This document shows, in pieces, positions 17,539 through 33,667 of a stretch of 33,667 nucleotides of DNA. Source of the stretch: Okeania hirsuta (GTDB lineage: Bacteria; Cyanobacteriota; Cyanobacteriia; Cyanobacteriales; Microcoleaceae); assembly GCF_003838195.1 (NCBI RefSeq), contig NZ_RCBY01000068.1, positions 1 through 33,667 on the forward strand, in the 5' to 3' direction. A program made the translations under genes and the position numbers. How positions within the stretch are numbered: the first letter of the stretch is position 1; each line of letters starts with the position of its first letter. The notes beneath the pieces are model-generated. The model was not told where the DNA came from and ran no database searches. It saw nothing but the letters and a program-made list of their open reading frames with translations.

Positions 17539-17577
17539 AGAGGAAATGGGTTTATACCTGTTTCCTCTAAAGTTTTT
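17539..17577 (+). terminator. Rho-independent terminator after the DUF1830 gene
   Basis: Stem agaggaaa/tttcctct extended by gg/cc around a small loop, then a T-rich stretch (aaagttttt). It lies before the ATG of the next gene at 17628. Confidence 0.75.
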
Positions 17578-17627
17578 AATGAACAAATAATAAGTCTCTT
17601 AAATTAAAAATATTTAGTTAAGAAAAA

Positions 17628-18185
17628 ATGTCTCAAAATCAAGACTCAGAAATTTTTGTATTTAGAATTTCTCCTCTGATTAAAATAACCCTTTTAAGTT
17701 TGTATGTGGCATTGACTATACCTCTACCTTTTCTATCTCAAGTCACAAATGCGCCAGTACCTCCTATGATTTTAGGAGCGGGACTAGCACTAGGAGCAGT
17801 AGCATTATACGCAGCTTTAACAGAACGAGTAATTATTGATGACCAGGGAATTCAGGTATCCTATCCAGTCTGGGTGCCAGACCTGTTTCGCAAAGGTTGG
17901 TATTTGCCTTGGGCAGAAATAAAAGCTCTCAAACCTCGGACTACAGGTCAGGGAGGTTTAGTATATTACTTTGTAAGTAATTCTGAAAAAGGTTATTTGT
18001 TGCCCATGCGAATAGTGGGTTTTGCCAAGTTGGTGAGAATAGTTGAGGCCAAGACAGGTATAGATACAACTGATGTACGTCCTTTATCGCAGCCTTGGAT
18101 GTATTTGATTTTATTCGGTTGTACGATATTGTTACTATTAGTAGATGCCTGGACTATTTCCAACGCGATCGCTATTTCTTCTTGA
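17628..18185 (+). CDS. Conserved cyanobacterial membrane protein
   Basis: 185 residues with three hydrophobic helices: IKITLLSLYVALTIPLPFL, PPMILGAGLALGAVALYAAL, and near the end WMYLILFGCTILLLLVDAW. A soluble segment between helices 2 and 3 resembles a PH-like or photosystem-assembly type domain (ERVIIDDQGIQVSYPVWVP, LPWAEIKALKPRTTGQGG). I recognise it as a conserved cyanobacterial protein but cannot give a function. ATG at 17628. The stop TGA is part of the purine module TTGAAGAAGG that begins at the stop codon. The ABC ATPase gene lies 279 bp downstream on the same strand. Confidence 0.75.
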   Translation: MSQNQDSEIFVFRISPLIKITLLSLYVALTIPLPFLSQVTNAPVPPMILGAGLALGAVALYAALTERVIIDDQGIQVSYPVWVPDLFRKGWYLPWAEIKALKPRTTGQGGLVYYFVSNSEKGYLLPMRIVGFAKLVRIVEAKTGIDTTDVRPLSQPWMYLILFGCTILLLLVDAWTISNAIAISS

Positions 18186-18380
18186 AGAAGGAAGAAGGAA
18201 GAAGGAAGAAGGAAGAACCGAAGGACTAAAGGACTAAAAAAGTGTATGGGGAAGTATTCTATATAGAAGAAGCAAGAGGGAAGAAGGAAGAAGGAAGAAC
18301 CGAAGGACTAAAAAAGTGTATGGGGAAGTATTCTACATAGAAGAAGCAAGAGGGAAGAAGGAAGAAGGAAGAACCGAATT
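18182..18380 (+). repeat. TTGAAGAAGG module with 74-bp tandem duplication
   Basis: A purine tract of gaagaagg units starts at the stop codon of the membrane protein gene. Within it a 74-bp unit (starting ggactaaaaaagtgtatggg) is present twice, at 18231-18304 and 18305-18378, almost identical. The region ends with the motif gaggtattaaac at 18432-18443, also seen in the other copies of this module. Confidence 0.85.
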
Positions 18381-18400
18381 TTTGTTTCTAGGTATTTTTA

Positions 18401-18427
18401 TCACCCCATCACCCCATCACCCCATCA
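18401..18427. repeat. Nonamer repeat (tcaccccat)3
   Basis: Three perfect 9-bp copies, 38 bp before the ABC ATPase start codon. Confidence 0.85.
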
Positions 18428-18464
18428 GTGTGAGGTATTAAACTTATGAAGAAAAAGATAAAAA

Positions 18465-19220
18465 ATGGGACAGCAGCAGCGTCAACTATATTTAGACCGA
18501 GTAAGTTTGACCGCTCCAGTTAGCTCTAAGTATTTACTGAAAGATATTTCTTTTGCTGTAGAAAAAGGCGCTAGAGTTGCTATAGTAGGTACTTCTGGAG
18601 CAGGGAAAACATCTCTATTGCGATTATTAAATCGATTAAATTCCCCTACTTCTGGTTCTATATATTTGGATAACCAGGAGTATAGCAAGATTCCTGTTAC
18701 TCAATTACGACAACAAGTGACAATGGTTTTACAGGAATCAAAACTTTTAGGAATGTCTGTAGCAGAAGCGATCGCTTATCCTTTAAAACTCAGAGGAATA
18801 AGGCCACCTGAAATTCAGCAAAGATGTGAATATTGGATACAGCAGTTGCATATTCCTCCCGACTGGTTATCCAGGTCAGAATTACAACTTTCAGTGGGGC
18901 AAAAACAGTTAGTAGCGATCGCTCGTGCTGCTGTAATTCAACCTAAAATTCTATTATTGGACGAACCGACCTCATCTCTAGATGTTGGTACAGCAGATCT
19001 AGTTATAGGGGTATTGAAAACGTTAACAGAAAGTCAAGTAACGGTGATTATGGTTAACCATCAAATAGATTTAGCTCAACAGTTTTGCACACAATTGTTA
19101 CATCTAGAGCAAGGAGAATTAATTGAAGACTCTCCTAGTAGTAAAGTTGATTGGGTTAAGTTACGCCATAGTATTATTCAGGCACAAAGACAAAGACAAG
19201 AAACTGAAGAATGGAGCTAG
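18465..19220 (+). CDS. ABC transporter ATP-binding protein
   Basis: 251 residues, a single nucleotide-binding domain. Walker A GTSGAGKTS near residue 43, Q-loop VLQESKLLG, signature LSVGQKQLVAIARA (the usual LSGGQ with Gly replaced by Val), Walker B KILLLDEPTSSLD, and H-loop MVNHQ. It is closest in feel to the FetA/YbbL or phosphate-type importers and exporters, but the permease is not adjacent, so the substrate is unknown. The ATG at 18465 follows the nonamer repeat; an ATG 19 bases upstream is out of frame. It is convergent with the response regulator at 19370. Confidence 0.88.
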   Translation: MGQQQRQLYLDRVSLTAPVSSKYLLKDISFAVEKGARVAIVGTSGAGKTSLLRLLNRLNSPTSGSIYLDNQEYSKIPVTQLRQQVTMVLQESKLLGMSVAEAIAYPLKLRGIRPPEIQQRCEYWIQQLHIPPDWLSRSELQLSVGQKQLVAIARAAVIQPKILLLDEPTSSLDVGTADLVIGVLKTLTESQVTVIMVNHQIDLAQQFCTQLLHLEQGELIEDSPSSKVDWVKLRHSIIQAQRQRQETEEWS

Positions 19221-19369
19221 TATAATAGACTTGTCGCTAAATAAAGGGAAAAAATCACTCTAACCTAGACAGAGCAATAATTCCCAGCATTTTTACCATC
19301 CAATAGCTACAATCCTTACAGAACAAGGTTTTTGGGGAATTTTTAAGTTATAAAGCCACAAGTCTAATA

Positions 19370-20125
19370 TTAAGCAGGTGTAACTTTTTGAGGTTGTCTA
19401 TAGCTCTGATAATTCTGTTCCCATGTATTTATAGTTAAGATTTCTCGATTGAACCTATATCCTACATTCCTAACTGTCTGAATTAGACTAGGTTGGCGAG
19501 GGTCAATTTCGATTTTTTTTCGCAGAGATAGTACATGGGTGTCTATGGTACGAGGATTATCTATAGAGTCTGGCCATGCTCTGTGTAGTAATTGTGAGCG
19601 AGTTAGGGGTATTCCCCCTGATTGAGCTAAGACATAAAGGAGACTAAATTCTTGTGGAGTTAAATCAATTAAACTGCCGTTCAATTTAACTCTACGATGT
19701 ACTAAATCAATAATCAAGTCACCATAATCTATACTTATAGGTGGGCTACAACTAATGCTCCTCTGCCGACGTAGTAGTGCTTCTACTCTGGCCATAAATT
19801 CTTGCATACCAAAAGGTTTGGTGAGATAGTCATCTGCTCCAGATTTTAATCCTGCGACAATATCTGCTTCAGTTGTTTGCGAGGAGAGCATAAAAATTAA
19901 GGACTTTTGCTGTTGCTGAACCCACTGACAAAATTCGAGACTATTTCCATCAGGTAGGTCAGCTTCCATAATTACTAGATTTGGGCAATGACTATGTATT
20001 AATTGCTTGGCATGATGAATATTCGCTGACTGATGTACAGAGTGGTTTGTTTGCTGCAAATGCCAACCAAGCAGCGATCGCAAACGCGGATTTCCTTCTA
20101 AAATTAGAATACAAGCAGCTCCCAC
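19370..20125 (-). CDS. OmpR-type response regulator with Glu at the phosphorylation site
   Basis: 251 residues. Receiver domain (5-118) followed by a winged-helix DNA-binding domain (about 130-230: LTPQEFSLLYVLAQSGG, LLHRAW, TIDTHVLSLRKKIE, IQTVRNVGYRF). The phosphoacceptor position is Glu54 (VIMEADLPDG) instead of Asp, and the acidic pocket reads EGN (10-12) instead of EDD/EDN; the lysine (LTKPFG, Lys103) is kept. It may therefore act without phosphorylation, as a permanently active or ligand-gated regulator. The start is GTG at 20125 with AGGA six bases upstream. No histidine kinase is adjacent. NblR-like regulators are one possible group; the target genes are unknown. Confidence 0.88.
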   Translation of the reverse strand: MGAACILILEGNPRLRSLLGWHLQQTNHSVHQSANIHHAKQLIHSHCPNLVIMEADLPDGNSLEFCQWVQQQQKSLIFMLSSQTTEADIVAGLKSGADDYLTKPFGMQEFMARVEALLRRQRSISCSPPISIDYGDLIIDLVHRRVKLNGSLIDLTPQEFSLLYVLAQSGGIPLTRSQLLHRAWPDSIDNPRTIDTHVLSLRKKIEIDPRQPSLIQTVRNVGYRFNREILTINTWEQNYQSYRQPQKVTPA

Positions 20126-20871
20126 TTAATTCCTAATGGCTTTTCCTATAATTAGCTACTACTAAGTTAACATAAAGTCTAGTAAGAGTTTTGTAACATA
20201 GGTCACTGCTTAGATATTTCCTCTGCAAAACTAACAGTGATTATTTTTGAGCGACTTCCCACAAGTATACTTTAATCAAAACTAATCAACTTTTACTTCC
20301 TTGCGGTAAAACCTCCTACTTAATTTTTCTCGGTTGATTACTACTTCTTTCTTCTGACTTCTTCTCAATGTGCGATGAATCAATTGTCAATTAATTATTG
20401 GCCTTACAGCTATCAAAATCTAGTCTATATCAACAGTGTTCCAGGCAAAATTTTCCCTAATTCCTAATATTTTGCACGACCAAAATCAAAGTTATCTAGT
20501 GTATTCAACATTTCACTATATCACATATTTTATTTTTTTTCCAACTCAATATTTTTGAATTTATTTTGAAAATTAGCGGAAACTACAATAAATCTATTGT
20601 AGAAATAAGATGGACTGGTAATCAATAGATTTATAAGTCTACTAAAGAGTTGAGAGGGTTGAGGAAATTGTTTTAAAATAAAAGCAGCAAAAATAATAGT
20701 CAAGAAAATGTTCAGCTATAAGTGTTCCTGTAATGTGTAATACCAACTTTATAGTTAATTAACACTAATCTAAAAAAAACACTAGAAGTTGCACTAAAAA
20801 TCAAATTACATTAACCTAAAGACTAGGTTTTAACTGAAAATATAACCATTAATTCTGAGAATAAAAAGGTC
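20126..20871. other. Divergent spacer of 746 bp, no gene
   Basis: It must hold promoters for the response regulator (minus) and the DUF6761 gene (plus). The only structure seen is a 10-bp inverted repeat aaatctattg (20590-20599) / caatagattt (20623-20632). No coding frame, tRNA or long repeat was recognised. Confidence 0.5.
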
Positions 20872-21126
20872 ATGTTAACCGACGCTCTAACAATTCGCCA
20901 CTATCAAAAACTCACTGACGCCCTCGTCGAAATGTGGAACCGTGGTTACCGCTATGAGGAGATGCGTATATATTTAGATGGCTACCTAGCATCTTTGAGA
21001 ATCTCAAAAGCGATCGAACCATTTTTAATTAATAGATTGGAGGAAGAAACAACTCGCTACATATACGACCCTTCAAATTTTGAAATGCCAGCATTACAAA
21101 CTGAAACTGAAGTAGATTATTACTAA
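20872..21126 (+). CDS. DUF6761 family protein
   Basis: 84 residues, small and acidic towards the end. The pattern TIRHYQKLTDALVEMWNRGY, then MRIYLDGYLASLR and AIEPFLINRLEEE is highly conserved across cyanobacteria and was named DUF6761, as I recall. It is probably all-helical and cytosolic, with no known function. The ATG at 20872 is clear. A bidirectional terminator follows 22 bp after the stop. Confidence 0.8.
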   Translation: MLTDALTIRHYQKLTDALVEMWNRGYRYEEMRIYLDGYLASLRISKAIEPFLINRLEEETTRYIYDPSNFEMPALQTETEVDYY

Positions 21127-21148
21127 ATTAAAGTAGTTGTAATTAAAA

Positions 21149-21187
21149 AATGAAGGGTATTGAATAACGCCCTTCATTCTTTTTTTT
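21149..21187. terminator. Bidirectional Rho-independent terminator
   Basis: Stem aatgaaggg/cccttcatt with a 12-base loop. It is followed by a run of eight T on the plus strand and preceded by six A, which read as T on the minus strand. It lies between convergent genes (DUF6761 and glutaredoxin) and serves both. Confidence 0.88.
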
Positions 21188-21217
21188 AATAGTTTTAGAT
21201 TGACAAATACAGAGTGT

Positions 21218-21553
21218 CTAAGAGGCTAAAGCAATTGCTACCTTTTGCTCTAGTTCTTCTTTATTCTTATTGAACATTTCAATTATCACATCAGAGCCAC
21301 CGATAAATTCGCCACTAATGTAAACCTGGGGAATTGTTGGCCAGCTAGAATATTCCTTAATTCCTTGACGAATTTCTGGATCTTCTAACACATCAAAAGT
21401 TTCATAGGTAGCTCCTAAAATATTCAATATTTGTACAACATTGTTAGAGAAACCACACTGGGGCATCAACTTATTACCCTTCATAAAAACCATAATTTTA
21501 TTCTTAGTAACTAAGTCATCAATTCTGGCTTTCAATTCTGGAGTTAGAGTCAT
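21218..21553 (-). CDS. grxD: Monothiol CGFS glutaredoxin (Grx4/GrxD type)
   Basis: 111 residues. It contains the iron-sulfur-binding CGFS active site (PQCGFSNNVVQILN, Cys33), the upstream lysine (FMKGNK), and the glutathione-binding WPTIPQVYISGEFIGGSDVI. Such proteins carry 2Fe-2S clusters and act in iron-sulfur trafficking and iron sensing. The frame stays open upstream to 21706, but those 51 residues are not family-like. ATG at 21553 has gaggaa about 8 bases upstream. The bolA gene precedes it on the same strand by 217 bp; BolA and CGFS glutaredoxins form heterodimers, so the pair makes functional sense. Confidence 0.94.
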   Translation of the reverse strand: MTLTPELKARIDDLVTKNKIMVFMKGNKLMPQCGFSNNVVQILNILGATYETFDVLEDPEIRQGIKEYSSWPTIPQVYISGEFIGGSDVIIEMFNKNKEELEQKVAIALAS

Positions 21554-21770
21554 AGCTATTTCCTCAAATAGAAGATGTTCATCTAAGCATTCAGCATTTA
21601 GCTGATACCAACCTATTGCTGATATCTTTACCTTAACTAAATAGCCGAGTGCTGTTTGATTTATAGATACTATTAACTTGCCTGATATATTGAGGCAAAT
21701 TATCAAAGTTAATCAATTATGGCTAATATAACCAAATAATCCTGTCTGCGTTGTAACTCAAAAGCAAAAA

Positions 21771-22028
21771 TTAAGAAGTTTGTCCCACAGCTTCCCACTC
21801 TTGAGGAGTATAAGTTTTTAAAGCCAAAGCATGGATAGCTTCAGACGCCATAGGTTCTTGTACAGCAGCATAAACCATTTGATGTTGTTTAACTCGAGTT
21901 TTTCCTTCAAACTGAGACGAAACAACAGTCGCTTGTAAGTGGTCGCCACCCCCGGTTAAATCTTGGACTTGTACTTGAGCATCTGGCAACTCCGCTTTAA
22001 TCATTGATTCAACTTCTTCTAAATTCAT
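21771..22028 (-). CDS. BolA family protein
   Basis: 85 residues, the full length of the family. It shows the start [20 protein letters not shown], the double-glycine turn DLTGGGDH and the helix-turn [11 protein letters not shown] with the conserved His that ligates the shared 2Fe-2S cluster with a CGFS glutaredoxin, followed by [14 protein letters not shown]. Close to the cyanobacterial BolA of the YrbA type. ATG at 22028. It is followed by the glutaredoxin gene and probably shares its transcript. Confidence 0.92.
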
Positions 22029-22169
22029 TGTTCTTCCACTGTAAAGTTACTGTTATTCTACATATAGCAGGGAACAAGGAACAGGCAACAGGCAACAGTA
22101 GGAAAAGTATTTCTGTGTCTTATGGTTCATCATTAACATAAGTAAAACACTAACTCGTTCCTTGCTATA

Positions 22170-22850
22170 TTAATTAAGAGACTGGGATGAGTTAGGAGGT
22201 TGATTCTCTCCAGAGGATCTAGGATAGGGAATATCAACAAATCCTAATTCTAGTAATTGTTGGTAGGCTTTTTTTCCTAGATCGCGAGTGGGTTGCTGAG
22301 AGCTAATAATTTGAACAAGTAATGGTACTGCTAATTCAGGTTGGTTTTGCGCCCGGTGGACTAAAGCTAATTGATAAGTGGCCTGGTCTCTCATTTGAGC
22401 AGTGTCCAATGCCTTAGTACGTTGGTCATCTGCCAGACGATTATCTATACCAGAAAAACTAGCAGCTAATTGACTATAGAAATTAGAAAGTTGATTAAAT
22501 ATTTGACGAGCTTCTTGAAGTTTCTGACTAGCTAAATTATAATTCTCTGAGGTAATGGCATTGTCAGCTTCACTCATTAAACGTTGTCCTCCCTGAAGAC
22601 TGAGAAGACTATTTTGTTCATTTAAAGGACGAACATTTTCGGGTTGTGTGGGTTGTATTGGAACTGGAGAAGAAGGAAGGTTTTGTGGATCTGTAGAGTT
22701 TTCTGGTGAAACTTGAATCGGAATTTCTTGCTCTGCGGAATTTTCAGATTGAGCATTAAGTGGTTGTTGTAAAAGAATGAAAGCTGCCGTAATTAGGAGA
22801 GTAAAGCCGAATTTGGAGCGAATTAAAGGAATAGGTTGAGTAAATATCAT
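22170..22850 (-). CDS. Exported helical (TPR-like) protein, unknown function
   Basis: 226 residues. A signal peptide or anchor (GFTLLITAAFILLQQPLNA, likely cleaved after NA) is followed by a Pro/Ser/Gln-rich linker (30-80). A helical region comes next, with ALDTAQMRDQATYQLALVHRAQNQPELAVPLLVQII resembling one or two tetratricopeptide hairpins. The C-terminus is again low-complexity. Likely periplasmic. I do not recognise the family beyond 'conserved in cyanobacteria'. ATG at 22850. Upstream on the same strand lies an orphan IS605-type palindrome at 22905. Confidence 0.7.
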   Translation of the reverse strand: MIFTQPIPLIRSKFGFTLLITAAFILLQQPLNAQSENSAEQEIPIQVSPENSTDPQNLPSSPVPIQPTQPENVRPLNEQNSLLSLQGGQRLMSEADNAITSENYNLASQKLQEARQIFNQLSNFYSQLAASFSGIDNRLADDQRTKALDTAQMRDQATYQLALVHRAQNQPELAVPLLVQIISSQQPTRDLGKKAYQQLLELGFVDIPYPRSSGENQPPNSSQSLN

Positions 22851-22904
22851 AATTATTTAGTGAGTTCGTATAAATAAAAAACTATCATAAATGTTGAAAG
22901 AGGA

Positions 22905-22934
22905 CTCCCGTTATAGTCGCGATATTTAACGGTG
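22905..22934. repeat. Orphan palindrome related to the IS605 ends
   Basis: Its reverse complement aligns with the 31-bp hairpins of the IS605 element at 1591 and 3366, with about three mismatches and one missing base (shared gttaaat, tcgcga and tataacgggag). No transposase is near, so it is a solo end or palindrome-associated non-autonomous copy. Confidence 0.65.
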
Positions 22935-23063
22935 AAAGTGTCAATTTTTAGATATACTATAACTTTTTCAAAAATATATGGTTTTGAAGAGGGTTGTAGG
23001 TTTTAGGTTTTAGGTTAATTTTTCCATCTTATAGAGAATTAAAAAGTGTTTCGGTCTGGAAAT

Positions 23064-23090
23064 GCTGTTTGCGGAGCATTCCGGTACGGA
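23064..23090 (-). repeat. REP-like core, solo copy
   Basis: Inverse of the core tttcc..cggaatgctccgcaaacag found at 5181, 14702, 24411, 28048 and 31750; slightly diverged here. Confidence 0.6.
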
Positions 23091-23137
23091 AAATGCTGAT
23101 AGTTAGTTAAACTCTAATGAATTGTGGACACCGCAGG

Positions 23138-23167
23138 TAACGATAATATAACAATATATTATCGTTA
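23138..23167. repeat. Perfect 13-bp stem hairpin
   Basis: taacgataatata, a four-base loop acaa, and tatattatcgtta. Followed on the plus strand by cttttcctttat. It lies about 100 bp beyond the HAD stop on the minus strand and could terminate that transcript, though no T-run follows in that direction. Confidence 0.8.
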
Positions 23168-23180
23168 TCTTTTCCTTTAT

Positions 23181-23271
23181 GGATTTAATACCTCAATGTC
23201 TACACGGTGTCTACAAGTTTTTTGGGTTTTATCCACTTTTTCCTTCTTGCTTCTTGCTTCTTCCTTCTTCA
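23181..23271 (-). repeat. TTGAAGAAGG gene-end module (HAD copy)
   Basis: On the minus strand it begins ttttgaagaaggaagaag, with TGA being the HAD stop codon. It continues to aaaaagtggata, then tagacaccgtgtagac and ggtattaaatcc. Confidence 0.75.
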
Positions 23272-23946
23272 AAAGAATGGTGGTAGTTGCCATAATTGGG
23301 GTTGAAATTCTGTTAAGGAATTAAGAATTTGATGGGCGGAATAAAATAAGGTTTTATCCATATCAGGATCGGGTACAACTACTACGGACATTCCTGCAGC
23401 TAAGGCAGCTTCCATTCCTGCTAAAGAGTCTTCAAATACTAAACAATTTTTGGGAGAAGCATCTAATCTTTTGGCAGCTATTAAGAAAATATCTGGTGCT
23501 GGTTTTCCATGTTTAAGATTAGGGTCATCTCCTACAACAATATGATTAAATAATTGGAACCATTCTTGATGATTTTTTGTTTTTAAATTAAATGGTTCTT
23601 TGGAAGAACTGGTAGCTACAGCTTGAGGTATTTTATTTTGATATAAATGTTGGGTAAGATGAACTGCACCTGGCATTGGTTTTGATTCAGGAAAGCGTTG
23701 ATATGTGAGGGTATTTCTTTGTTGAAGATAATCTTCGGGAGTGACAGGTAGTTCTAATAATTCTACAATTGCTTTGGCAGAATCAATTGATTTTCTACCA
23801 GTAATTTTACACTTAGTTTGTTTATCAAAAATTTTGCCATAACGGCTGGTAACTTCTAAGTTTACCTGAGCATGAATTGATTCTGTATCTAGAAGTAAAC
23901 CGTCTAAGTCATAAATAACATGAGTGATTTTTGGGAAATTATTCAT
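23269..23946 (-). CDS. HAD-family phosphatase, PGMB/HDHD1-like
   Basis: 225 residues of haloacid-dehalogenase subfamily IA with an alpha-helical cap. Motif I is YDLDGLLLDTE (nucleophile and acid/base Asp near residues 13 and 15), motif II is VATSSSKEPF, motif III the lysine in KHGKPAPDIF, and motif IV FEDSLAGMEAA. It resembles the pseudouridine-5'-phosphatase / beta-phosphoglucomutase branch; the substrate cannot be read from sequence. It lacks the phosphonatase-type nucleophile loop, so it is not PhnX despite lying downstream of the phn genes. ATG at 23946. Its stop codon lies in the purine module shared with other genes here. Confidence 0.87.
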   Translation of the reverse strand: MNNFPKITHVIYDLDGLLLDTESIHAQVNLEVTSRYGKIFDKQTKCKITGRKSIDSAKAIVELLELPVTPEDYLQQRNTLTYQRFPESKPMPGAVHLTQHLYQNKIPQAVATSSSKEPFNLKTKNHQEWFQLFNHIVVGDDPNLKHGKPAPDIFLIAAKRLDASPKNCLVFEDSLAGMEAALAAGMSVVVVPDPDMDKTLFYSAHQILNSLTEFQPQLWQLPPFF

Positions 23947-24405
23947 CGTTTTTTTTATAGTTATAATTAATTTTTTATACCGTTTGTATGAGTTTTTACT
24001 ATAAATATTTAGGGTATTTTTAGTAGTAAGTAGTCAGGAGAAATAAAATCTATTCTTTTAGTCAAATAGATATTAAAACAATTTATGCCAAATTCATAAA
24101 AAGTTGTAGACAATAATATTTTAATTGTACGCTCTTTATCAAGAGCAGTTCTATTTTAATTATCTTATTATTAAAGGTGGTTGATTTATTCTCAATCAGT
24201 CATAATTAATTGTGATAATTACTTAATTTTGTAATTTTGAACAATTAATCTAGGATAATATAACCGAAAAAATATTATATTATTTTTTTGCTCCGATTTA
24301 CTACCTGTTAATAACTAAATTTATTAACTTATATCAAGGGTAGTTTTCCTGTTTGAAATTGATAGGAAAATTGATGACTAATAAATTGTCAATATTACTA
24401 AATTA

Positions 24406-25279
24406 GTAAGCATTTCCTGCGGAATGCTGCGCAAACAGCTCTTAGGAGTCAGCGCTTCCCTGCGGGATGCTATGCAAACAGCAAATAATTAATAATTCTT
24501 TCTAAGGCTGAATGAGCGTAAGGATTCAGGTCCTATGGAAAAGCCTATAAATCTTGATAGATAAGCATTTCCGGCAATTATCTCCCAAATTATATTCTCA
24601 ATTAGAAATGGCTACAAACCTTTATTTTCGTCATTATTGAGAATGAGACTATTAAATTGCTGAGTTAGTCATTTTCAGAGTTCTCTCTATAACTGGGTTT
24701 GAGATACCTGAATCCTTACGAATGAGCGTACATTGGCAGTAACTTTTAATTCTCTATCAATTTTTCAATTGCTTTTACCGAATAATTAATAATTAAATAA
24801 TTAAATAATTAAACAATTTTAGGGTAAAAGCCTCCCCTTTCAAGGGGAAAAAAGCGGTCGAGGGATGGCGAGGTTTCCTCGCCATATCTAATCGACCAAG
24901 AGAATAAATTTTTTCCTTATTGGTCAATCCTCTCCCTAAAAGCTATGATTTATAAACATCTTTCTTGACATAAAAATTGACTTTTAGAGACAAGTTATGT
25001 GTGAGTGTTTCAGAGGCTTTTTCTTCAAAAATCATGTATTGAAAAGTACATTTTTTTTGAGGACTTAAGTAGTTTTGCCAAGCTTTATTGACTGCTTCTC
25101 CCTTCTCCCCTACTCCCTACTCCCCTGCTCCCCACAAGGTTTTCAGAAGTTCCTTATCAGGGATAGCCCTAAAAGGGAGAGGTAATTGTCCATTATCCAT
25201 TTCAATTATCCATTAATAAACTCCTCCTCTAATCAATAACTAATGGCTGTTTGCGCAGCATTCCGAAGGAAATGCTTAC
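24406..25279. mobile_element. 874-bp non-autonomous IS66-like element
   Basis: Left end gtaagcatttcctgcgg... and the inverse of the right end match over 34 bp with one mismatch; each includes the REP-like core. Perfect 8-bp direct repeats ctaaatta flank it (24398-24405 and 25280-25287). No transposase frame is present. GTAA ends with 8-bp duplications are the hallmark of IS66-family elements. A second element is inserted inside (24518-24719), and a diverged extra core lies at 24454-24482. Confidence 0.85.
24518..24719. mobile_element. 202-bp MITE nested in the 874-bp element
   Basis: Perfect 14-bp inverted ends gtaaggattcaggt / acctgaatccttac, flanked by perfect 8-bp repeats gaatgagc (24510-24517 and 24720-24727). 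Its ends differ from those of the host element after GTAAG, so it is a separate family. Non-coding. Confidence 0.88.
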
Positions 25280-25310
25280 CTAAATTATCATAGTTTTATC
25301 TTTTTCTTTT

Positions 25311-25430
25311 GGGTTTAATAACGCGCCATCTACAGGATGTTTACAATTGGTTGGGGTTTGAGTCCCTATCCACTTTTTACTTCTTCCTTCTTTCTTCTTT
25401 CTTCTTCTTTCTTCCTTCTTCCTTCTTCAA
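25311..25430 (-). repeat. TTGAAGAAGG gene-end module (HD oxygenase copy)
   Basis: On the minus strand it starts cttgaagaaggaagaagg inside the coding frame and ends past aaaaagtggatag, the TAG being the stop. It then shares aattgtaaac, tgtag and attaaaccc with the HAD copy and caaccaatt with the phnJ copy. Confidence 0.75.
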
Positions 25431-25965
25431 GAATTATCTGAGTAAAGTGTTTTAAATCTGGAGTTTTAAAACCAACAACTTTAGCTTGGTCATCCCAAAT
25501 TCTTAGTTTTACTGCATCTTTTGCATAGGGTTGATGAATAAATTGAGCAGCAGCATCAGAAGAAAATATTCCTCCTTGTAATTCTAAACTTTGTTGAGAA
25601 GCTGGTGATAAACTTGAAAAATAGTTAGGTTTTGTTGCACAAAGATAACGTTTTGCTTCAACATGAAGGCGAATTGGTTCTGTTACAGCTTCTCCAAATA
25701 AATGTTTTAAATATTTGATACTACGATATTCATGATGGTCGTTAATACCTTTGTTTGCAGCATCTTCTCCTAAGTCGTGAATTAGATGTCCTAAGTCGTG
25801 AAATAAGCAAGCCACAATTAGTTCATTATTAGCTTTTGCTGTTTTTGCTAAAGTAGCACATTGGAGAGCGTGTTCTAGTTGACTAATAGATTCTTGATTA
25901 TATTGAATATGACCTTTTGAGGAAAGAATTTGAATGATTGTTTTTATATCGGGTTTCATTTTCAT
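25366..25965 (-). CDS. PhnZ-like HD-domain diiron oxygenase (phosphonate-operon HD family)
   Basis: About 199 residues. The HD scaffold has HALQ (His32), FHDLGH (His56, Asp57, His60), DHHEY (His78), RLHVEAKRY (His101) and WDD (Asp158/159). The segment QYNQES supplies Tyr22 and Glu25, the Y-x-x-E pair that distinguishes PhnZ and relatives from ordinary HD hydrolases. PhnZ uses O2 to split 1-hydroxyphosphonates into a carboxylate and phosphate. The hydroxylase partner PhnY is not in the window. The open frame begins at TTG 25998; ATG 25965 (or 25959) is chosen. The last 17 residues (EEGRRKKEEERRKKEEV and on) are encoded by a repeat module, not by the family. It lies downstream of phnM on the same strand, 528 bp away. 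Confidence 0.83.
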   Translation of the reverse strand: MKMKPDIKTIIQILSSKGHIQYNQESISQLEHALQCATLAKTAKANNELIVACLFHDLGHLIHDLGEDAANKGINDHHEYRSIKYLKHLFGEAVTEPIRLHVEAKRYLCATKPNYFSSLSPASQQSLELQGGIFSSDAAAQFIHQPYAKDAVKLRIWDDQAKVVGFKTPDLKHFTQIILEEGRRKKEEERRKKEEVKSG

Positions 25966-26493
25966 TGTGTATTTATAAGTGATAAAAAATAATGCCAAAT
26001 ATCAAAAGTATTGCTACATATCTTTGAGGGTTAGGGAGTAGGGAGTAGGGTTCAAAGAAATAAGATATTTTGGTTTAATACCGGGAATCGTTACAAACAT
26101 TACTTAACAATTATTATTACTTAATAACTGAATTTTTTATGAAGTATAGCATTATTTTTGGGAATTAGTATAATTAGTTGTTAGGGGTTAATTAAAACAG
26201 ATTTACTCTTGACTTTATAATTCTAGTCAATGAAATTTTACCGTTATTTGATGGTGTTTTTTAGGGTTATCTATTTCAGTGAAATTATGACTTTTTTAAC
26301 CATTAACTAGATTTTTTGACTAGGGTGAAAATTTACCATAGCAACCTTCATACTAAGTTTTGAAATTTTGTTAAGGGGAATTAGCCCACAAATTTTTACA
26401 GCCTAAAATACTTGATTGATTTTACATTTAATTTTGGCAAAATTTCCGTGAAGTAAGACTTAAAAAAATCCTCCCTTCTGTAAAATCAACAGT
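25966..26493. other. Spacer between phnM and the HD gene, no gene
   Basis: AT-rich, with a heptamer tract gggagta (two copies) near 26033-26048. No coding frame or inverted-repeat-bounded element was recognised. If phnM and the HD gene are co-transcribed, the message would cross it. Confidence 0.5.
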
Positions 26494-27630
26494 TTAAGCA
26501 ACACGACGGCCATTAACGATCGCTGAAGTTAAATGGGGGACTATACCATCATCATGTACCGTAATTAAATCGGCACGTTTGCCAACTTCTAAACTTCCTC
26601 TATCGTGAGATAAATTAATAGTTTTAGCTGGATTAATTGTAACTAATTTCATAGCTTCATATAAAGGTTTACCAATTTTATGACTAATAATAAAAATAGA
26701 TTGTAATAGACTCCGAGGTACATAATCTGAAGAAATTACATCTACTAAATTTTGCTCTACCAATTCCATTGCAGATACATTTCCAGAATGAGAACCTCCT
26801 AATACTAAATTCGGCGCTCCCATCAATACTTGTAATCCAGAATTATGAGCTTCTTTTGCCGCTTCTAAAGTAGTTGGAAATTCTGCTAAAACTGCCCCAT
26901 TCTCTAAAGCTTCTTGCACATGACTTATTGTTGCATCATCGTGAGAAGCTAGGGAAATTCCATTTTGTTTTGCTAATTCAACTAATGCTTGACGATTTTT
27001 AGGAGCATATTGTTGTTGAGTTTCCTGACGATGGGCAATAAATTTATTCATTTCTGTTTCGCTAATTCCATACTTACCCATGTAATATTCTTTATATTTT
27101 TCCACACTCACAAATTGTCTTTGACCAGGAGTATGATCCATCAAAGACATGAGAGAAAGAAACGGATTATTTGCATATTTTTCTGCAGCAGTAAATATAT
27201 CTTCAAAGGAAATTTCACAACGTAAATGTAGCCGATGATCTGTCAGAAGTCTACCTGTTTTTTGCCCCTCAAAAATAGCTTCAATCATTTCACCAAAACG
27301 CTTAACTCGAACAGAATTAGGTTTAATATCTCCAATGGCGATCGCGTCACAAACTGTTGTAATTCCAGAAGTAATTAAGTCTCGGTCGTGGTAAGATACT
27401 GCTGCTGCTAAAGGCCATTTTACAGCAGGGCGAGGAGACATACATTTTTCTAGGTTATCTGTATGAAGTTCTATCAGTCCAGGCATTAAATATTCTCTTT
27501 GACCATCTTGACCAATATTAACTATTCCTGGCTGAATTTCGGCTATTTTTCCATCACGAACTATGAGAGTACCAATAGTTTCTTGGTCTGGTAACTGTAG
27601 GCGATAGTTTGTGTAAATTTGTTCGTTCAT
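26494..27630 (-). CDS. phnM: Alpha-D-ribose 1-methylphosphonate 5-triphosphate diphosphatase
   Basis: 378 residues, an amidohydrolase-fold enzyme. In the C-P lyase pathway it removes diphosphate from ribose-1-alkylphosphonate 5-triphosphate, giving the PhnJ substrate. Signatures: LMPGLIELHTDNLEKCMSPR (His-x-Asp metal site), SYHDRDLITSGITTVCDAIA, SLMDHTPGQRQ, SLASHDDATISHV, GAPNLVLGGSHSGNVSA and SSDYVPRSLL. Length and motifs are complete. ATG at 27630. It follows phnL by 1.4 kb on the same strand, the gap holding MITEs and an opposing gene, so it probably has its own promoter. The upstream spacer carries the Pho-box-like repeats at 27636-27665. Confidence 0.95.
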   Translation of the reverse strand: MNEQIYTNYRLQLPDQETIGTLIVRDGKIAEIQPGIVNIGQDGQREYLMPGLIELHTDNLEKCMSPRPAVKWPLAAAVSYHDRDLITSGITTVCDAIAIGDIKPNSVRVKRFGEMIEAIFEGQKTGRLLTDHRLHLRCEISFEDIFTAAEKYANNPFLSLMSLMDHTPGQRQFVSVEKYKEYYMGKYGISETEMNKFIAHRQETQQQYAPKNRQALVELAKQNGISLASHDDATISHVQEALENGAVLAEFPTTLEAAKEAHNSGLQVLMGAPNLVLGGSHSGNVSAMELVEQNLVDVISSDYVPRSLLQSIFIISHKIGKPLYEAMKLVTINPAKTINLSHDRGSLEVGKRADLITVHDDGIVPHLTSAIVNGRRVA

Positions 27631-27635
27631 ATTTA

Positions 27636-27665
27636 TTTAATCAACAGTTAATCTTAAATTAACCA
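27636..27665 (+). promoter_or_regulatory. Pho-box-like triple repeat
   Basis: Three octamers with exact 11-bp phasing, tttaatca (27636), gttaatct (27647) and attaacca (27658), fit the cyanobacterial PhoB/SphR consensus PyTTAAPyPy(T/A) at 8, 7 and 7 of 8 positions on the plus strand. A possible -10, tatagt, lies at 27686-27691. The orientation favours the Dabb gene at 27742. The boxes end 5 bp from the phnM ATG, too close to serve phnM in the usual way. Confidence 0.45.
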
Positions 27666-27741
27666 ATTGGAATTTTTAGTTTCTCTATAGTAACCTCTAT
27701 TTCTGTTAAAATACAGGAGCAGTTTTGAAAGATTGATTTAT

Positions 27742-28035
27742 ATGATAGTACATATAGTTTTATTTAAGTGGCATCCAGATACTTCAGCAGAAACTATTAC
27801 CTCGGTTATGTCTGCTTTAAAAGGAATGAAAGAGAAAGTGCCGGAAATAATTGATATATCTTGTGGGAATAATTTCTCGGAGCTTTCTCAAGGTTTTCAA
27901 AATGGTTTAGTAGTGCAATTTAAGGATCAAGTTGCTCTTGATGCTTATGCAAAAAATGCCTATCATCAAGAAATTATTAAGACTTTGATTAAGCCAATTT
28001 TGGCAGATAAAATTACTATTGATTATGAAGTTTAA
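27742..28035 (+). CDS. Dabb (stress-responsive A/B barrel) domain protein
   Basis: 97 residues, one dimeric alpha-beta barrel domain: the opening strand MIVHIVLFKW, KGMKEKVPEI, the strand ISCGNNFS, GLVVQFKDQVALDAYAKNAYHQEII and the last strand ADKITIDYEV. Proteins of this fold are small dimers with varied or unknown function; some act on polyketides or haem. The frame opens at TTG 27733; the ATG at 27742 is used. It is the only plus-strand gene within the phn region, divergent from phnM with a 111-bp shared promoter region. The TAA stop is the first part of the 8-bp target duplication of the MITE that follows. Confidence 0.85.
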   Translation: MIVHIVLFKWHPDTSAETITSVMSALKGMKEKVPEIIDISCGNNFSELSQGFQNGLVVQFKDQVALDAYAKNAYHQEIIKTLIKPILADKITIDYEV

Positions 28036-28040
28036 CTATT

Positions 28041-28241
28041 GTAAGCATTTCCTGCGGAATGCTGCGCAAACAGCTAGCTCGCAGTCAGCTTTTAGCTGTT
28101 TCATAAATAATGAATATACACTGCTAAGGTCAAGGTTAGTTTTTTTTACAATACTTTGAATTATCCTTAAATATCTCAATACTAATTCCTGCTATAAAAA
28201 GCAATGAATTAATAGCTTATAGCTGACCGCTGAATGCTTAC
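28041..28241. mobile_element. 201-bp GTAAG-ended MITE after the Dabb gene
   Basis: Ends gtaagcatt / aatgcttac, with the REP-like core at 28048-28074. Perfect 8-bp direct repeats taactatt flank it (28033-28040 and 28242-28249). The left duplication starts with the TAA stop of the Dabb gene. Non-coding. Confidence 0.9.
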
Positions 28242-28515
28242 TAACTATTTTCATTATTTCGAGGGAAGATCAATAAAAGTATGACAAAAGCCAAAAGGCT
28301 CATTAAGGCTAATTATTGATATTCTATGGTTTCTAATTTTTCATAAGCTCTAACTTTACTTTTGCGATAAAATACAAAACTTTCAACCTTCTCATTTTTT
28401 TCTTTTTCTAGATGTTGTTTTTAATAAAAACTACCCCATAGTCAAAAAATGATACTGTTCAATGAAAAATGTTTTAAATTCACTATTTTGGCTGGAAAAT
28501 TGTTTAAGTTTCATT

Positions 28516-28909
28516 GTAAGTATTCAGCTATTAGCTGTCAGTTCGAGCGCAATAAAACTTTCCTATGAAGGAAGTGTTTAAATGAATATAGACTTTAACC
28601 TCAAAGGAACCTGTTTTTGTAAGATTTAATTATCACTGGATTCTGACTTAATAATACCCCTTAATATCTAAGCATTCAGCCATAAGCAGTTAGCTCTCAG
28701 CTTTTTAATTAATAAAGCAGCCATCTGCTTAATTTCATAATACATTTTCAACTAATTATTGGAAATATCTCAATTACTTTTTCCTCCTTTAAAGGTAATA
28801 AAAAAAGCTGATAGCTGATGGCTGATAGCTGAATGCTTACCTGAATATAGGGTTTAATAAAGCTCAAAAGCAATAGTTGATGACTCATAGCTGACGGCTG
28901 AATGCTTAG
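28516..28909. mobile_element. 394-bp GTAAG-type MITE containing another MITE
   Basis: Ends gtaagtattcagc and gctgaatgcttag, flanked by perfect 8-bp repeats gtttcatt (28508-28515 and 28910-28917). Subtracting the inner element and its duplication leaves 213 bp, the normal size for this family here. Confidence 0.85.
28668..28840. mobile_element. 173-bp MITE nested in the 28516-28909 element
   Basis: Ends (c)taagcattcagc and gctgaatgcttac, flanked by near-identical 8-bp repeats cttaatat (28660-28667) and ctgaatat (28841-28848). Same family as its host. Confidence 0.75.
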
Positions 28910-29048
28910 GTTTCATTAAACATCTCCAAAAATCAAAAATAAAATCAATTATCGTACATAAATTATCAATTATTTCCCCCTACTCTGTACGGACGTTTCA
29001 TGCAAAATTCCTACTTCCTACTCCCTATTTTATGGAGATATCTATTAA

Positions 29049-29786
29049 CTAAATTCCAAACATAATTTCCCTGGTACAAAGTCTTCTTTTTACTTCTTCA
29101 TCATGGAAAATGCCGATTAAACCACACCCATTAACTAGGCGTTTTTCTAAAAGTTCAATTACTACTTGACGATTGACAGAATCTAGAGCTGATGTTGGTT
29201 CATCTAATAATAAAATTGGATAATCAACTGTTAAGCTTCTGGCGAGATTAATTCGTTGTTTTTCACCTCCAGAAAAAGTAGTAGGAGAAAGATGCCAAAG
29301 ACGTTTTGGTAAATTCAATAGATCGAATAATTCTGCCACTTTTTGATAGGCTACTTTTGGCTCAGTTCCTAATTCTAATAAAGGTTCTGCTGCTACTTCT
29401 AAAGCTGCCACACGAGGAATTACTCGTAAAAATTGGCTAACATAACCAATAGTATTTTTTCGTACTTCTAATATTTGATGGGGTGCTAATTTAGGAAGAT
29501 CGACCCAGGTAGATTTATGTTTGATTAAAACCGAACCTTTATCGACTCGATAGTTACCGTAAAGGCAACGCATAAATGTAGATTTTCCCGAACCAGACTT
29601 ACCAGATAAAGCAATACATTCTCCTGCTGTTAAACTGAGAGAAATATTTTTTAAGACTGATAATTTTACTCCGCCTTGGTTGTGTAAAGTAAAGCTTTTT
29701 TCTAATGCTTCTGCTTTTAATAATAAAGAGTTTTCTGGGAAAGTATTTTCTGGCTGATTATTTGCTGTTAGTAGTTGAATAGTCAT
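29049..29786 (-). CDS. phnL: C-P lyase ATPase subunit PhnL
   Basis: About 245 residues, an ABC-type nucleotide-binding protein of the C-P lyase machinery rather than a transporter. Walker A ALSGKSGSGKST, Q-loop VSQFLRVIPRV, signature FSGGEKQRINLARS, Walker B PILLLDEPTSALD, and switch GIFHDEEV. LRVIPRVAALEVAAEPLLE and the FHDEEVKRRLC ending are characteristic of PhnL. In E. coli PhnL is needed with PhnG/H/I for ribosyl transfer to the phosphonate and associates with the PhnK-bound core. The frame opens at TTG 29798; the ATG at 29786 is used. It is separated from phnK upstream by 1.15 kb of tandem repeats. Confidence 0.92.
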   Translation of the reverse strand: MTIQLLTANNQPENTFPENSLLLKAEALEKSFTLHNQGGVKLSVLKNISLSLTAGECIALSGKSGSGKSTFMRCLYGNYRVDKGSVLIKHKSTWVDLPKLAPHQILEVRKNTIGYVSQFLRVIPRVAALEVAAEPLLELGTEPKVAYQKVAELFDLLNLPKRLWHLSPTTFSGGEKQRINLARSLTVDYPILLLDEPTSALDSVNRQVVIELLEKRLVNGCGLIGIFHDEEVKRRLCTREIMFGI

Positions 29787-29827
29787 TTCAGTTATCAATT
29801 ATTAGTTATCAGTTATCAGTACATCTT

Positions 29828-29856
29828 GCTGTTTGCGCAGCATTCCGTAGGAAAGC
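29828..29856 (-). repeat. REP-like core, solo copy near phnL
   Basis: gctgtttgcgcagcattccg followed by taggaaagc: the inverse of the shared core, about 40 bp upstream of the phnL start, without GTAAG ends. Confidence 0.7.
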
Positions 29857-29940
29857 AAGAGGATTGAAATCTAGAATATTCTGTTTTCTCATCCCTTGAA
29901 AAAGGGAAGCTATTAACCATAATTTTTCGGTCATAAATCA

Positions 29941-30660
29941 TTTTTCATATTTGAGTACTGTAAGATGTTGATAGTGATTTTTTTTTTGTTTCTCGTAAGT
30001 TGGGTAAAACCAAAAAATATGGCAAATATAGCAATAGTTAAAAGTCAAATTATTGCGATGGCTGAAACTAGAAAATTTGATAATTATTTACCTAATATTT
30101 AACTATTGTATAGGTTTTGGCGAGATAATTTATCCTCTTAACGAAACCTATCATTATGATAATTTTTGCCTAATTATTTTGCTTGTATTTTGAGTAGTCG
30201 ATAAATTTCGACCACACTATTTTCTAGCTGATGATTAGTTATTAAGGTTTGAGTAGTCATCAATAATTTCTTATCTCTAAGTCAGGTGAGATACTAATGC
30301 TGAAAAATTTGCTTCTCACCATGTTGGGTCAACGCAAAAAAGGTTAGATAATTTGATAATTCCTTAGTCAATATTCAACTACTGTATAGTTGTTTTTGAT
30401 TGTCATATTGCTGAAACAAGCAAAGGGATGAGAATTTCTTCCTAATTTTTTTGCTTGTGCTTTGAGTAGTCGAGAAGTTTCGACCACACTATTTTCTAGT
30501 TGATGATTAGTTGTTAGTAGTTGAGTAGTCATCAATAATTTTTCATATTTGAGTACCGTGAAATGCTGATGCTGAAAAATTTGTTTCCCGTAGGTTGGGT
30601 CAACTCAAAAGATTTGACAAATATAGCAATAGGTAACAGTCAAAATTTGGCAGAAGTCAG
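29941..30660. repeat. Three tandem copies of a 270-330-bp unit
   Basis: Copies start near 29941, 30269 and 30541 (third partial). Landmarks repeated in order: tttcatatttgagtac, ctgaaaaatttg, gttgggtcaac, ctattgtatag/ctactgtatag, then gagtagtcga..tttcgaccacactattt and tagtcatcaataattt (offset 272 between copies 1 and 2 at the last landmarks). Diverged by roughly a quarter, so an old duplication. No coding frame is shared by the copies. Confidence 0.8.
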
Positions 30661-30938
30661 GAATAGGCAAAAGAAAAATGTACGTCAGACAAACCAGGAC
30701 AAAAAAAGATGTAATTTTGACTTTTGTCATAATTTTTTTTCCCTCGCTCTTTCTTCCTTAATATTATGTCCGTTGGCGCGCGTTTGTGTAAACCAAAGCG
30801 TGAATATATACAGGAAATTAAAGTTTTTTTCTTGCTCTTAAACCTTCCTACCTTTTCCCTTTTCCCTCTTCCCTCTTCCTTCTTCCTTCTTCCTTACCTT
30901 CACGCTTACAATACTGATGCTGCCGGACATGATATAAC

Positions 30939-31709
30939 TCATGGAATTAATGTTGAACTAACTAATTGTTGAGTATAAGAATGTTGAGGGTCATCTAATA
31001 CTTGATCAGTCAAACCAGACTCAACAATTTGCCCATTTTTCATTACTAATAAACGGTGAGCAAGTAATCTAATCACCCCTAAATCATGGGTAACTAAAAT
31101 AACACTTAAACTGAGATTTCGCACCAGAGAACGAATTAAATCTAATAAACGAGCTTGTACCGAAACATCTAAACCTCCAGTAGGTTCATCCATTAATATT
31201 AACCTCGGTTTTGTGACTAAAACACGAGCTAATTGTAAACGTTGTTGCATCCCTCCAGAAAACATTTTTGGTAAGTCATCTATTCTATTAATATCTATTT
31301 CTACTTGCCTTAACCAATAAGCTGCTTCTTCCCGAATTTTTCCATAATTTTTTACTCCTATATTCATTAAACGTTCGCCAATATTTGCTCCAGCAGTTAC
31401 ATTCATTCGTAAACCATCACGAGGATTTTGTTGAACAAATCCCCATTCATTTCGCATTAATAAACGACGACGAGTTTCTGATAGTTTTGGGAGTGTTAAT
31501 ACTTCTCCGCTAGAGGTAGTATAGGTGATATTTCCGCCTTCAATTGGTATGTTTCCTACAATAGCATTTAATAAAGTAGATTTGCCTGAACCTGATTCTC
31601 CTACTATTCCTAAAACTTGGGCAGTATAGAGATTGAAAGAAACACAGTCACAAGCTTTTATATTCCTATAAAACTTACTCAATTTTTCAACATTTAATAA
31701 TGGTTCCAT
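30939..31709 (-). CDS. phnK: C-P lyase ATPase subunit PhnK
   Basis: 256 residues, ABC-type. Walker A GIVGESGSGKST, Q-loop FVQQNPRDGLRM (the NPRDGLRM wording is typical of PhnK), signature MFSGGMQQRLQLARVL, Walker B RLILMDEPTGGLD, H-loop ILVTHDLGV. It resembles oligopeptide-type ATPases, as PhnK does. PhnK docks on the PhnJ subunit of the PhnGHIJ core and is needed for phosphonate breakdown in vivo. ATG at 31709. It lies 651 bp after phnJ on the same strand, with a MITE and an 82-bp duplication between, an unusually wide gap for subunits that must be made together. Confidence 0.95.
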   Translation of the reverse strand: MEPLLNVEKLSKFYRNIKACDCVSFNLYTAQVLGIVGESGSGKSTLLNAIVGNIPIEGGNITYTTSSGEVLTLPKLSETRRRLLMRNEWGFVQQNPRDGLRMNVTAGANIGERLMNIGVKNYGKIREEAAYWLRQVEIDINRIDDLPKMFSGGMQQRLQLARVLVTKPRLILMDEPTGGLDVSVQARLLDLIRSLVRNLSLSVILVTHDLGVIRLLAHRLLVMKNGQIVESGLTDQVLDDPQHSYTQQLVSSTLIP

Positions 31710-31744
31710 AATCCACCATGATGTAGTTTTAATTTAGCTTTTAT

Positions 31745-32009
31745 GTAAGCATTTCCTCCGGAATGCTGCGCAAACAGCAGTCAGCTATCGGTTGTCAGCT
31801 TTATTACCTTTAATGGACAATTTAAGCCCGTTGTTCTTGTGCTTCAATTCTTAGTTTAAAAATGTAGTAGAAGTAAAGCAAATACTTGGTTCATTTATTT
31901 TTATTGCGCTTGAGCTGACCACTAATAGCTGAATGCTTACATTTTAACACTGTCCTTAAGGAGAGAGTCTTTTTGCGCTATAGCTGACAGTTAATAGCTG
32001 AATGCTTAC
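31745..32009. mobile_element. GTAAG-type MITE with two right ends, phnJ-phnK spacer
   Basis: Left end gtaagcatttcctccgg with REP-like core (31750-31778). Inverted right ends gctgaatgcttac occur at 31940 and again at 32009. Using the outer end, 7-bp repeats cttttat flank it (31738-31744 and 32010-32016). The first 196 bp is clearly related to the element at 14696-14911. Confidence 0.7.
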
Positions 32010-32031
32010 CTTTTATTTATTTAATTCTCTT

Positions 32032-32193
32032 CCTTTTAGAGAAAGGTAATTATCAATTATCAATTCTTGAAACGGTGCTTACCGAATAATTAATAATTAA
32101 TAATTGTTAATTACCTTTTAGAGAAAGGTAATTATCAATTATCAATTCTTGAAACGGTGCTTACCGAATAATTAATAATTAATAATTGTTAAT
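32032..32193. repeat. 82-bp tandem duplication
   Basis: Two essentially identical 82-bp units starting ccttttagagaaaggtaatt at 32032 and 32114, each containing gaaacggtgcttaccg and taattaataattaataatt. The absence of differences suggests a recent event. Confidence 0.92.
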
Positions 32194-32312
32194 TAAATAA
32201 TTCAGCTTTATTCGTCTCCTCTTTCAAGGGGAAAAAAAGTGCTAGGATATTTCCTTATATTCAATTCCGTAACGGTTAAAACCCGAGGTAATTATCCATT
32301 ATCCATTAATGA

Positions 32313-32404
32313 AAATTGGTTGGGGTTATCAGACAGGAAGTGCTGTATTAAAGACTATGCTCATCCACTTTTTCCTTCTTCCTTTTTCCTTCTTCCTTCT
32401 TCAA
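32313..32404 (-). repeat. TTGAAGAAGG gene-end module (phnJ copy)
   Basis: On the minus strand it starts cttgaagaaggaagaagg inside the phnJ frame, ends aaaaagtggatga (TGA is the stop) and then shares accccaaccaattt with the copy at 25311. Confidence 0.72.
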
Positions 32405-33284: not shown

Positions 33285-33667
33285 ATAGGGAATTTAAATT
33301 AATAGGGAATAGGGAATAGGGAATAGGCAACAGGCAACAGGCAACAGGCAACAGAAATTCGTAGCAAACATTTATCAAACTGTTATTAGGAGTCAGGAGT
33401 CAGGAGTCAGAATAAATAACTTAAATATCAGGTGGTGGTGTATTGTAATGGTCGTGCATTGTCATTATTTTTATTACAAGAACAGTGGGAGCATCTTGCT
33501 CCTGTGCCAGGTATTCCTTTCTGTTATTTGCTATATCTATAACCCACATTTTAATACTAGGGAATAAAATTAGGTAATTAATTTTGCCTAAGCAATTAAT
33601 TGTTAATTATTCATTATCATTTTCTTTGTGGGTTTAATACCCCACCGTCTACACGGTGTTCAAAATT
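33285..33667. other. Region upstream of phnJ, repeats only
   Basis: No gene within the window. Heptamer arrays: gggaata (about 33304-33325), ggcaaca (33326-33352) and ggagtca (about 33390-33408). A hairpin ggagca/tgctcc lies at 33488-33502, repeated from 9006. The right edge shows gggtttaataccccaccgtc and tacacggtgtt, the distal part of a gene-end module, suggesting that a further minus-strand gene 3' end lies just beyond the window. Confidence 0.7.

Follow-up and report, generated by a model that had tools for sequence, protein, structure and literature searches.

A dispersed, probably mobile element of Okeania hirsuta found between genes, at stop codons and within reading frames

Why should four unrelated genes finish in the same purine-rich sequence? 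The question is raised by a stretch of 33,667 nucleotides from the cyanobacterium Okeania hirsuta (contig NZ_RCBY01000068.1, positions 1 to 33,667; assembly GCF_003838195.1), hereafter the window. An initial annotation had noted a shared module at the ends of the genes terminating at 18185 (plus strand), 23269, 25366 and 32361 (minus strand), and had proposed a mobile 3′-end cassette, a terminator-like role or a selective filter on where the tract is tolerated. All four open reading frames (ORFs) do meet the module at their stops: at 18185 and 23269 a TGA comes from its TTGA, and at 25366 and 32361 it is read as an in-frame tail. The module, TTGAAGAAGGAAGAAGG, occurs exactly at 18182 (plus strand), 25430 and 32404 (both minus strand) and with one mismatch at 23272 (minus strand), and when up to three mismatches are allowed the window has 19 matches, where shuffles predict 0.19. 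We propose, with a probability of about three in four, that it belongs to a non-autonomous mobile element of Okeania, which would insert at N^ATAA, restore stop codons, be read in frame within genes and survive where selection permits.

Architecture and insertion site of the element

Alignment of the flanks, suggested earlier as a way to define the consensus, yielded an element with both ends and an ATAA right flank. The 17-mer module occupies the left terminus of a dispersed element, roughly 90-270 bp long, in which TTGAAGAAGG is followed by a (GAAGAAG)-type array of variable length, a body AAAAAGTGGATGGGGACTCAAACCCCAACCAATTGTAAACACCGTGTAGACGGTGGGGTATTAAACCC and an A-rich end, AAAAAG or AAAATG. 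The genome (8.79 Mb, 716 contigs, the window being contig 645) contains 49 exact copies of the 17-mer, against 6 of a reversed control; 25 of the 49 carry the shared body, and other 17-mer copies carry different bodies. Using a sequence-only model built on 21 bodies, we found at least 153 body copies in this genome, a lower bound, the best 150 of 5106 candidates having been scored. The heptad array would be a secondary, length-variable tandem repeat within the element, and its length varies strongly among congeners. One subfamily, TTGAAGAAGGAGACAGG..AAAATG, typically 120 bp long, recurs almost unchanged between unrelated flanks, 14 of the 50 copies assessed being identical; this 120-bp subfamily has spread recently. 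The right edge of the window, which had been taken for a fifth copy, indeed holds half of such a young element: copy E (33618..33667, minus strand) is its right half in the minus-strand reading, cut by the contig end.

The body model matches 13 of 59 family genomes, with at least 66 copies in each of the five genus genomes and between 1 and 17 in each of eight genomes belonging to three other genera. Copies of the 17-mer number 44-75 in four genus relatives and at most 4 in any other relative searched (59 genomes including O. hirsuta's own).

The right flank reads ATAA in 93 of the 101 copy records whose two ends could be identified (99 distinct left ends), a count in which the first two letters, AT, were forced by the end-search procedure; the left flank shows only a mild preference, A at -1 in 53% of the 101. 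Mapping each flank separately, we obtained empty alleles at 11 sites, some of them orthologues in related genomes and others paralogous copies of a flanking repeat; this set leaves out one ambiguous case (L088, 75% identity) as well as comparisons made between a single gene's tandem copies. Target duplication was seen at none of the 11, and the best empty allele read N^ATAA at eight, N^ATAG at two and N^AGAA at one (more distant empty alleles of the counted sites read AGAT, ATGA, ACAA or ATAG). These results show that insertion is precise, that it usually falls next to ATAA (TTAT when read from the opposite strand) and that the target is not duplicated. With exact empty sites on one side and identical body copies in unrelated flanks on the other, the mobile nature suggested at the outset is well supported.

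Stop regeneration and in-frame reading

A target ATAA that holds a stop codon (xxA TAA) would receive the element's TTGA and become xxT TGA, which keeps a stop in that frame. Such a change is seen at one locus, where the filled allele (L132) reads TGG ATT TGA and its empty orthologue in genome G004 (L204) reads TGG ATA TAA, both being preceded by about 500 open codons. Likewise, copy B (23169..23272, minus strand; right flank ATAACG), the TGA donor to the HAD-like gene at 23269-23946, reads TTC TTT TGA; at this place the G016 and G021 orthologues, which lack the element and finish with TTTTTATAG, have TTT TTA TAG. The evidence for stop regeneration by TTGA is thus one filled/empty pair and the comparison of copy B with outgroups. 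Copy A (18182..18457, plus strand), which extends from TTGAAGAAGG to ..AAAAAG with a diverged body, gives its TTGA stop to the gene at 17628-18185 and, to judge from the sequence, probably turned TCA TAA into TCT TGA; the junction in its outgroups is slightly different. Its right flank, ATAAAAAATGGG, is the start codon of the next gene, and an inner 74-bp block is repeated 2.5 times in tandem (18191-18378). Copies A and B occupy the same place in the four relatives G001-G004, with very different array lengths, G001 retaining only the left end of B.

In the O. hirsuta genome, 23 records entered by at least 80 open codons were sorted by phase, copies A and B being left out of the count: 18 (17 left ends) are entered in the N|TT phase, five as xx|T TGA and none in the third phase. 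All five xx|T TGA records lie on a former stop; the codon just ahead of it still specifies the same residue in three (Gly, Ile, Pro), and one residue is added in two. Positions were also tested for 98 of the 101 records (96 distinct left ends; three with short flanks were dropped), with 4951 ATAA sites in the same loci as controls. Exact-stop sites make up 5 of the 98 against 25 of the 4951 (p 0.0002).

In the N|TT phase (N|TT GAA GAA GGA), the array and body translate as [VI]EEGRRKKEEGRRKKWMGTQTPTNCKHRVDGGVLNPK(S/E)KD, so that a copy in this phase is predicted to give the protein a new C-terminal tail or, where its length is a multiple of three, to form an internal insert. EEGRRKK-type tails drawn from the array and the start of the body finish two of the four window genes, those for an HD-domain protein and a PhnJ-like protein. 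Copy C (25300..25430, minus strand), a complete element in this phase, puts the new tail LEEGRRKKEE..KSG on the HD-domain gene at 25366-25998, whose ORF ends at 25366 with LEEGRRKKEEERRKKEEVKSG and a stop; the copy is polymorphic, being present in O. hirsuta and G002 and absent from G001, G003 and G004, which have other C-termini there. Copy D (32308..32404, minus strand; also in G002, G003 and G004) comprises the left end, the array and the first half of the body, the right half being degenerate, and encodes the C-terminal tail of the PhnJ-like gene at 32361-33284, LEEGRRKKEEGKSG and a stop.

The ORF continues through the element in 13 of the 101 O. hirsuta records (12 distinct left ends). 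Over all loci compared, read-through was seen in 30 of 129 records, that is 26 left ends and 17 independent sites as judged by left-flank likeness, a share inflated because some loci were chosen by peptide match. Length is divisible by three in all 30, as the read-through criterion itself favours; the other 99 records leave remainders of 0, 1 and 2 in 46, 25 and 28 cases, or in 17, 19 and 27 without the 119-121-bp copies. Inserts interrupt PPDK_N and PNP_UDP_1 domain matches, and another lies between HisKA and HATPase_c (Pfam). We compared orthologues at 20 loci, 17 of which were aligned (one of these, L273, with no usable ORF). A PEP-synthase-like protein carries at least two tandem in-frame copies in Okeania SIO3B5, SIO2B3, SIO1I7 and SIO2C9, and the insert is absent from Okeania SIO3I5 and SIO2F4, four Trichodesmium loci and the aligned Planktothrix loci; the nucleosidase insert is present in all five genus genomes and absent from G010 and G016. 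A peptide model, with no more than 150 matches scored per genome, gave 142-150 in each of five genomes; many of these fall in long ORFs and many do not. Series of copies occur in a PEP-synthase-like open frame of 1453 codons in Okeania sp. SIO2C9 (L262), which has a long tandem run of in-frame copies, and in a 2362-codon open frame in G004 (contig 99, about 58968-64336), where the insert peptide is matched at least eight times.

Placement, movement and rival explanations

The 98 complete records are intergenic in 60 cases, at a sense stop in 12, within genes in sense in 15 and within genes in antisense in 6, with antisense starts (3), an antisense stop (1) and a sense start (1) making up the remaining five. 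Sense stops are enriched, since only 51 of the 4951 control sites (1.0%) lie there, and antisense positions in genes are scarce compared with the 1819 control sites (37%) of that class. One record, L049, enters the sense-stop class through a misplaced right end and was treated as a read-through copy in the read-through count. Gene-end placement concerns a minority of complete elements; and of the proposed 3′-end cassette the mobile part stood and the 3′-end-specific part fell, given 60 of 98 records between genes and 13 of 101 in frame inside ORFs. Genome-wide, 19 of the 49 exact copies of the 17-mer have a sense-ORF stop (ORFs of at least 80 amino acids) within -6 to +4, a raw count, the ATAA controls applying to the 98 records only, and in three more an ORF reads into the element and stops inside.

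The pattern of kept copies fits the selective filter put forward in the initial annotation. Copies landing in other frames or in antisense within genes would mostly be lost by selection, leaving survivors that are intergenic, at stop codons or in frame. Young copies stand at sense stops in 3 of 50 cases and older ones in 9 of 46; the stop share thus tends to rise with age, as a filter over time predicts, inconclusively at p 0.06. The young copies lying in sense within genes cannot be read through in the N|TT phase (stop at +62 in L080 and at +59 in L093), which argues against the active form being built for read-through. The placement as a whole fits a transposable element filtered by selection rather than a terminator or gene-end targeting.

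Movement probably occurs by single-strand transposition in trans, in the manner of IS200/IS605, through a presumed enzyme; this is suggested by the lack of target duplication, the fixed tetranucleotide beside one end and the good folding of a young copy (z -6.4 and -6.0 on the two strands). We hold with moderate confidence that the element works like an IS200/IS605 relative. It is not filed as a member of that group, because no partner with these ends was found, guide pairing was not evident and covariation did not exceed shuffles. IS605-like genes in the window itself, a TnpB-like gene (1683-2906, minus strand) and a Y1 transposase gene (2935-3345, plus strand) standing between inverted CTCCCGTTA..TAACGGGAG hairpins at 1588-3400, were ruled out as the mobilising partner on account of their different ends. 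A weakly matching, longer Y1 protein of about 170-240 codons is encoded in G000 (contig 129:1960-2325, L151), with similar ones in G001-G004, and is possibly a RAYT-like domesticated transposase.

Several observations weigh against the proposed mobile element or parts of its mechanism. The best empty allele differs from ATAA at 3 of the 11 sites, and element-free relatives of copy B read ATAG and those of copy C ATCA. Insertions in sense within genes are not significantly depleted (15 of 98 against 937 of 4951 controls, 19%; p 0.43), in a test whose genes were called by ORF length only, and the bias of the read-through criterion towards lengths divisible by three counts here as well. No autonomous element with these ends was seen in 63 loci around 84 Y1-transposase matches (five genus genomes; flanks of 1.5-2.5 kb). 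Complementary guide tetranucleotides were not evident at the hairpin feet when folded copies were inspected by eye; on the TTAT side, T-rich letters precede the hairpin and are not complementary to TTAT, and one hairpin lies far from its end owing to the array. Folding is poorer in older copies (z -2.2 and -2.0 for L011). Finally, a 22-pair structure fits 53 copies, with 79.9% of cells paired against at most 54.3% in slid versions, and covariation within it is not beyond shuffles, pairs changed on both sides being as numerous in 133 of 500. Those 53 copies were selected visually among 64 distinct bodies, 11 being set aside mostly because of indels; the 64 came from 193 records, bodies above 100 nt, which carry a 35-nt insertion, having been excluded beforehand. 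RNAalifold on 21 copies gave six pairs, one with both sides changed.

Could the element instead seek out stop codons, or the 3′ ends of transcribed genes? Active targeting of this kind would explain why even the young subfamily lies at sense stops more often than ATAA sites in general do (3 of 50, p 0.016). The stop, however, lies within the target tetranucleotide itself, 37 of the 50 young copies are intergenic and the enrichment tends, inconclusively, to grow with age, so that we regard targeting as unlikely. A functional RNA element at 3′ ends, whether terminator, mRNA stabiliser or attenuator, would account for the folding of the young copy on both strands and for the persistence of copies A and B in place across the genus, and terminator-like sites do occur at copy B (23135-23170) and copy C (25352-25368). 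These two are on the strand opposite to the ending genes, and no such site was found in the sense direction at the window copies; the count over 17500-33667, seven sites against 9.1 in shuffles, lends no support to the terminator-like role considered earlier. Most complete copies, moreover, stand away from gene ends, no covariation is significant, and RNA structure under selection was rejected as pairs changed on both sides are no more numerous than in shuffles. This makes a functional RNA very unlikely.

Two further explanations dispense with mobility or with a stable insert. Cyanobacterial genomes contain STRR and SDR repeats, in which heptanucleotide tandem arrays are combined with dispersed modules, and repeated slippage of plain STRR-type heptamers at purine-rich gene ends would agree with the variable array length between congeners and with the arrays found beside other bodies. 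It would not produce identical copies amid unrelated flanks, exact empty sites of whole elements or arrays attached to a conserved body whose right end is fixed, and we consider it extremely improbable. An insert that removes itself, like an intron or intein, is brought to mind by the location inside the conserved domains PPDK_N and PNP_UDP_1. Here the frame is kept in all 30 read-through records, which a spliced insert would not need, multi-copy arrays stay open, and Rfam returned no family at threshold in the window; such an insert is close to untenable.

Related systems and significance

Some other repeats lie near the element or share its parts. A second dispersed family, with a body containing ACGTTGTCT.AGTTTT, follows the same GAAGAAGG array at L003, L015, L024, L036 and window 9817-9930, in several cases with the same TTGAAGAAGG end; in the window its GAAGAAGG array (9817..9854, plus strand) lacks TTGA and precedes this different body (family B). 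A GGAAGAAGG array without the TTGA end (30851..30894, minus strand) stands within another repeat. At L229:1292-1377 and L122:2272-2356 a GGGG..CCCC hairpin is inverted, as if flipped in place, GGGATTTGAGTCCC replacing GGGGACTCAAACCCC. The window also holds a 165-bp unit repeated 2.5 times with 98% identity (257-674) and an 82-bp unit present twice with 100% identity (32032-32195). On one strand between 25366 and 33284, the HD-domain, PhnM-like, two ABC and PhnJ-like genes form what we take to be a phosphonate (C-P lyase) cluster.

Like elements derived from IS200/IS605, the Okeania element shows no target duplication, is flanked on one side by a constant tetranucleotide (TTAT when read from the opposite strand) and has predicted hairpins, and IS608 has the end TCAA, equal to its own. 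It differs in that no partner with the same ends was found, guide pairing is not evident and the distance from hairpin to end varies with the array. Classical miniature inverted-repeat elements mobilised by DDE transposases are a poor match, as TTGAAGAAGG and AAAAAG/AAAATG are not inverted repeats and the target is not duplicated. With STRR repeats the element shares a tandem heptanucleotide array, as one component only; the array here belongs to a defined mobile element with exact ends.

The closest known kinds are the Rickettsia palindromic elements (RPEs) and stop-donating REPs. RPEs, as portrayed in PMC10969869, are the known case of frequent in-frame insertion: small dispersed elements of about 150 bp, in frame in unrelated ORFs, to which they add a peptide. 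The Okeania element belongs to another phylum, only 13 of the 101 sampled records are in frame inside ORFs, and, in a comparison with RPEs by description, it has an ATAA target, a heptad array and a stop-regenerating end. PMC3733652 describes GTAG-tagged REPs as often donating a stop to flanking ORFs, with some lying within ORFs. Compared with these GTAG/CGTC-tagged REPs and their RAYTs, the Okeania element is of greater length and inserts at a fixed target; its stop is a TGA supplied by the terminus away from the ATAA flank, and its GTAG (GTTG in some copies) sits in a predicted loop rather than at a hairpin foot. The literature searched showed neither this element nor a free-living cyanobacterium in which an ATAA target, a stop-restoring TTGA end and a translatable array and body are combined; in it the heptad string appeared in one yeast paper and the two peptide strings in none.

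A simple rule, a stop-capable target combined with a terminus that restores the stop, would explain the odd motif at gene ends. It is possible, though doubtful, that the ends evolved to be coding-safe, exchanging stop for stop (ATAA to TTGA) and keeping entry and exit phases open, and so allow near-silent colonising of gene ends and interiors; the peptide would then be a recurrent Okeania insert and a source of protein novelty. For annotators, the finding is a warning that KKWMGTQTPTNCKHRVDGGVLNPK-type segments in Okeania proteins derive from a mobile element. Mobile DNA inside proteins, of the type known from Rickettsia, would thereby reach a genus of cyanobacteria that is free-living and has 153 or more copies in a single genome, and the Okeania inserts offer a setting in which its effect on protein function is testable.

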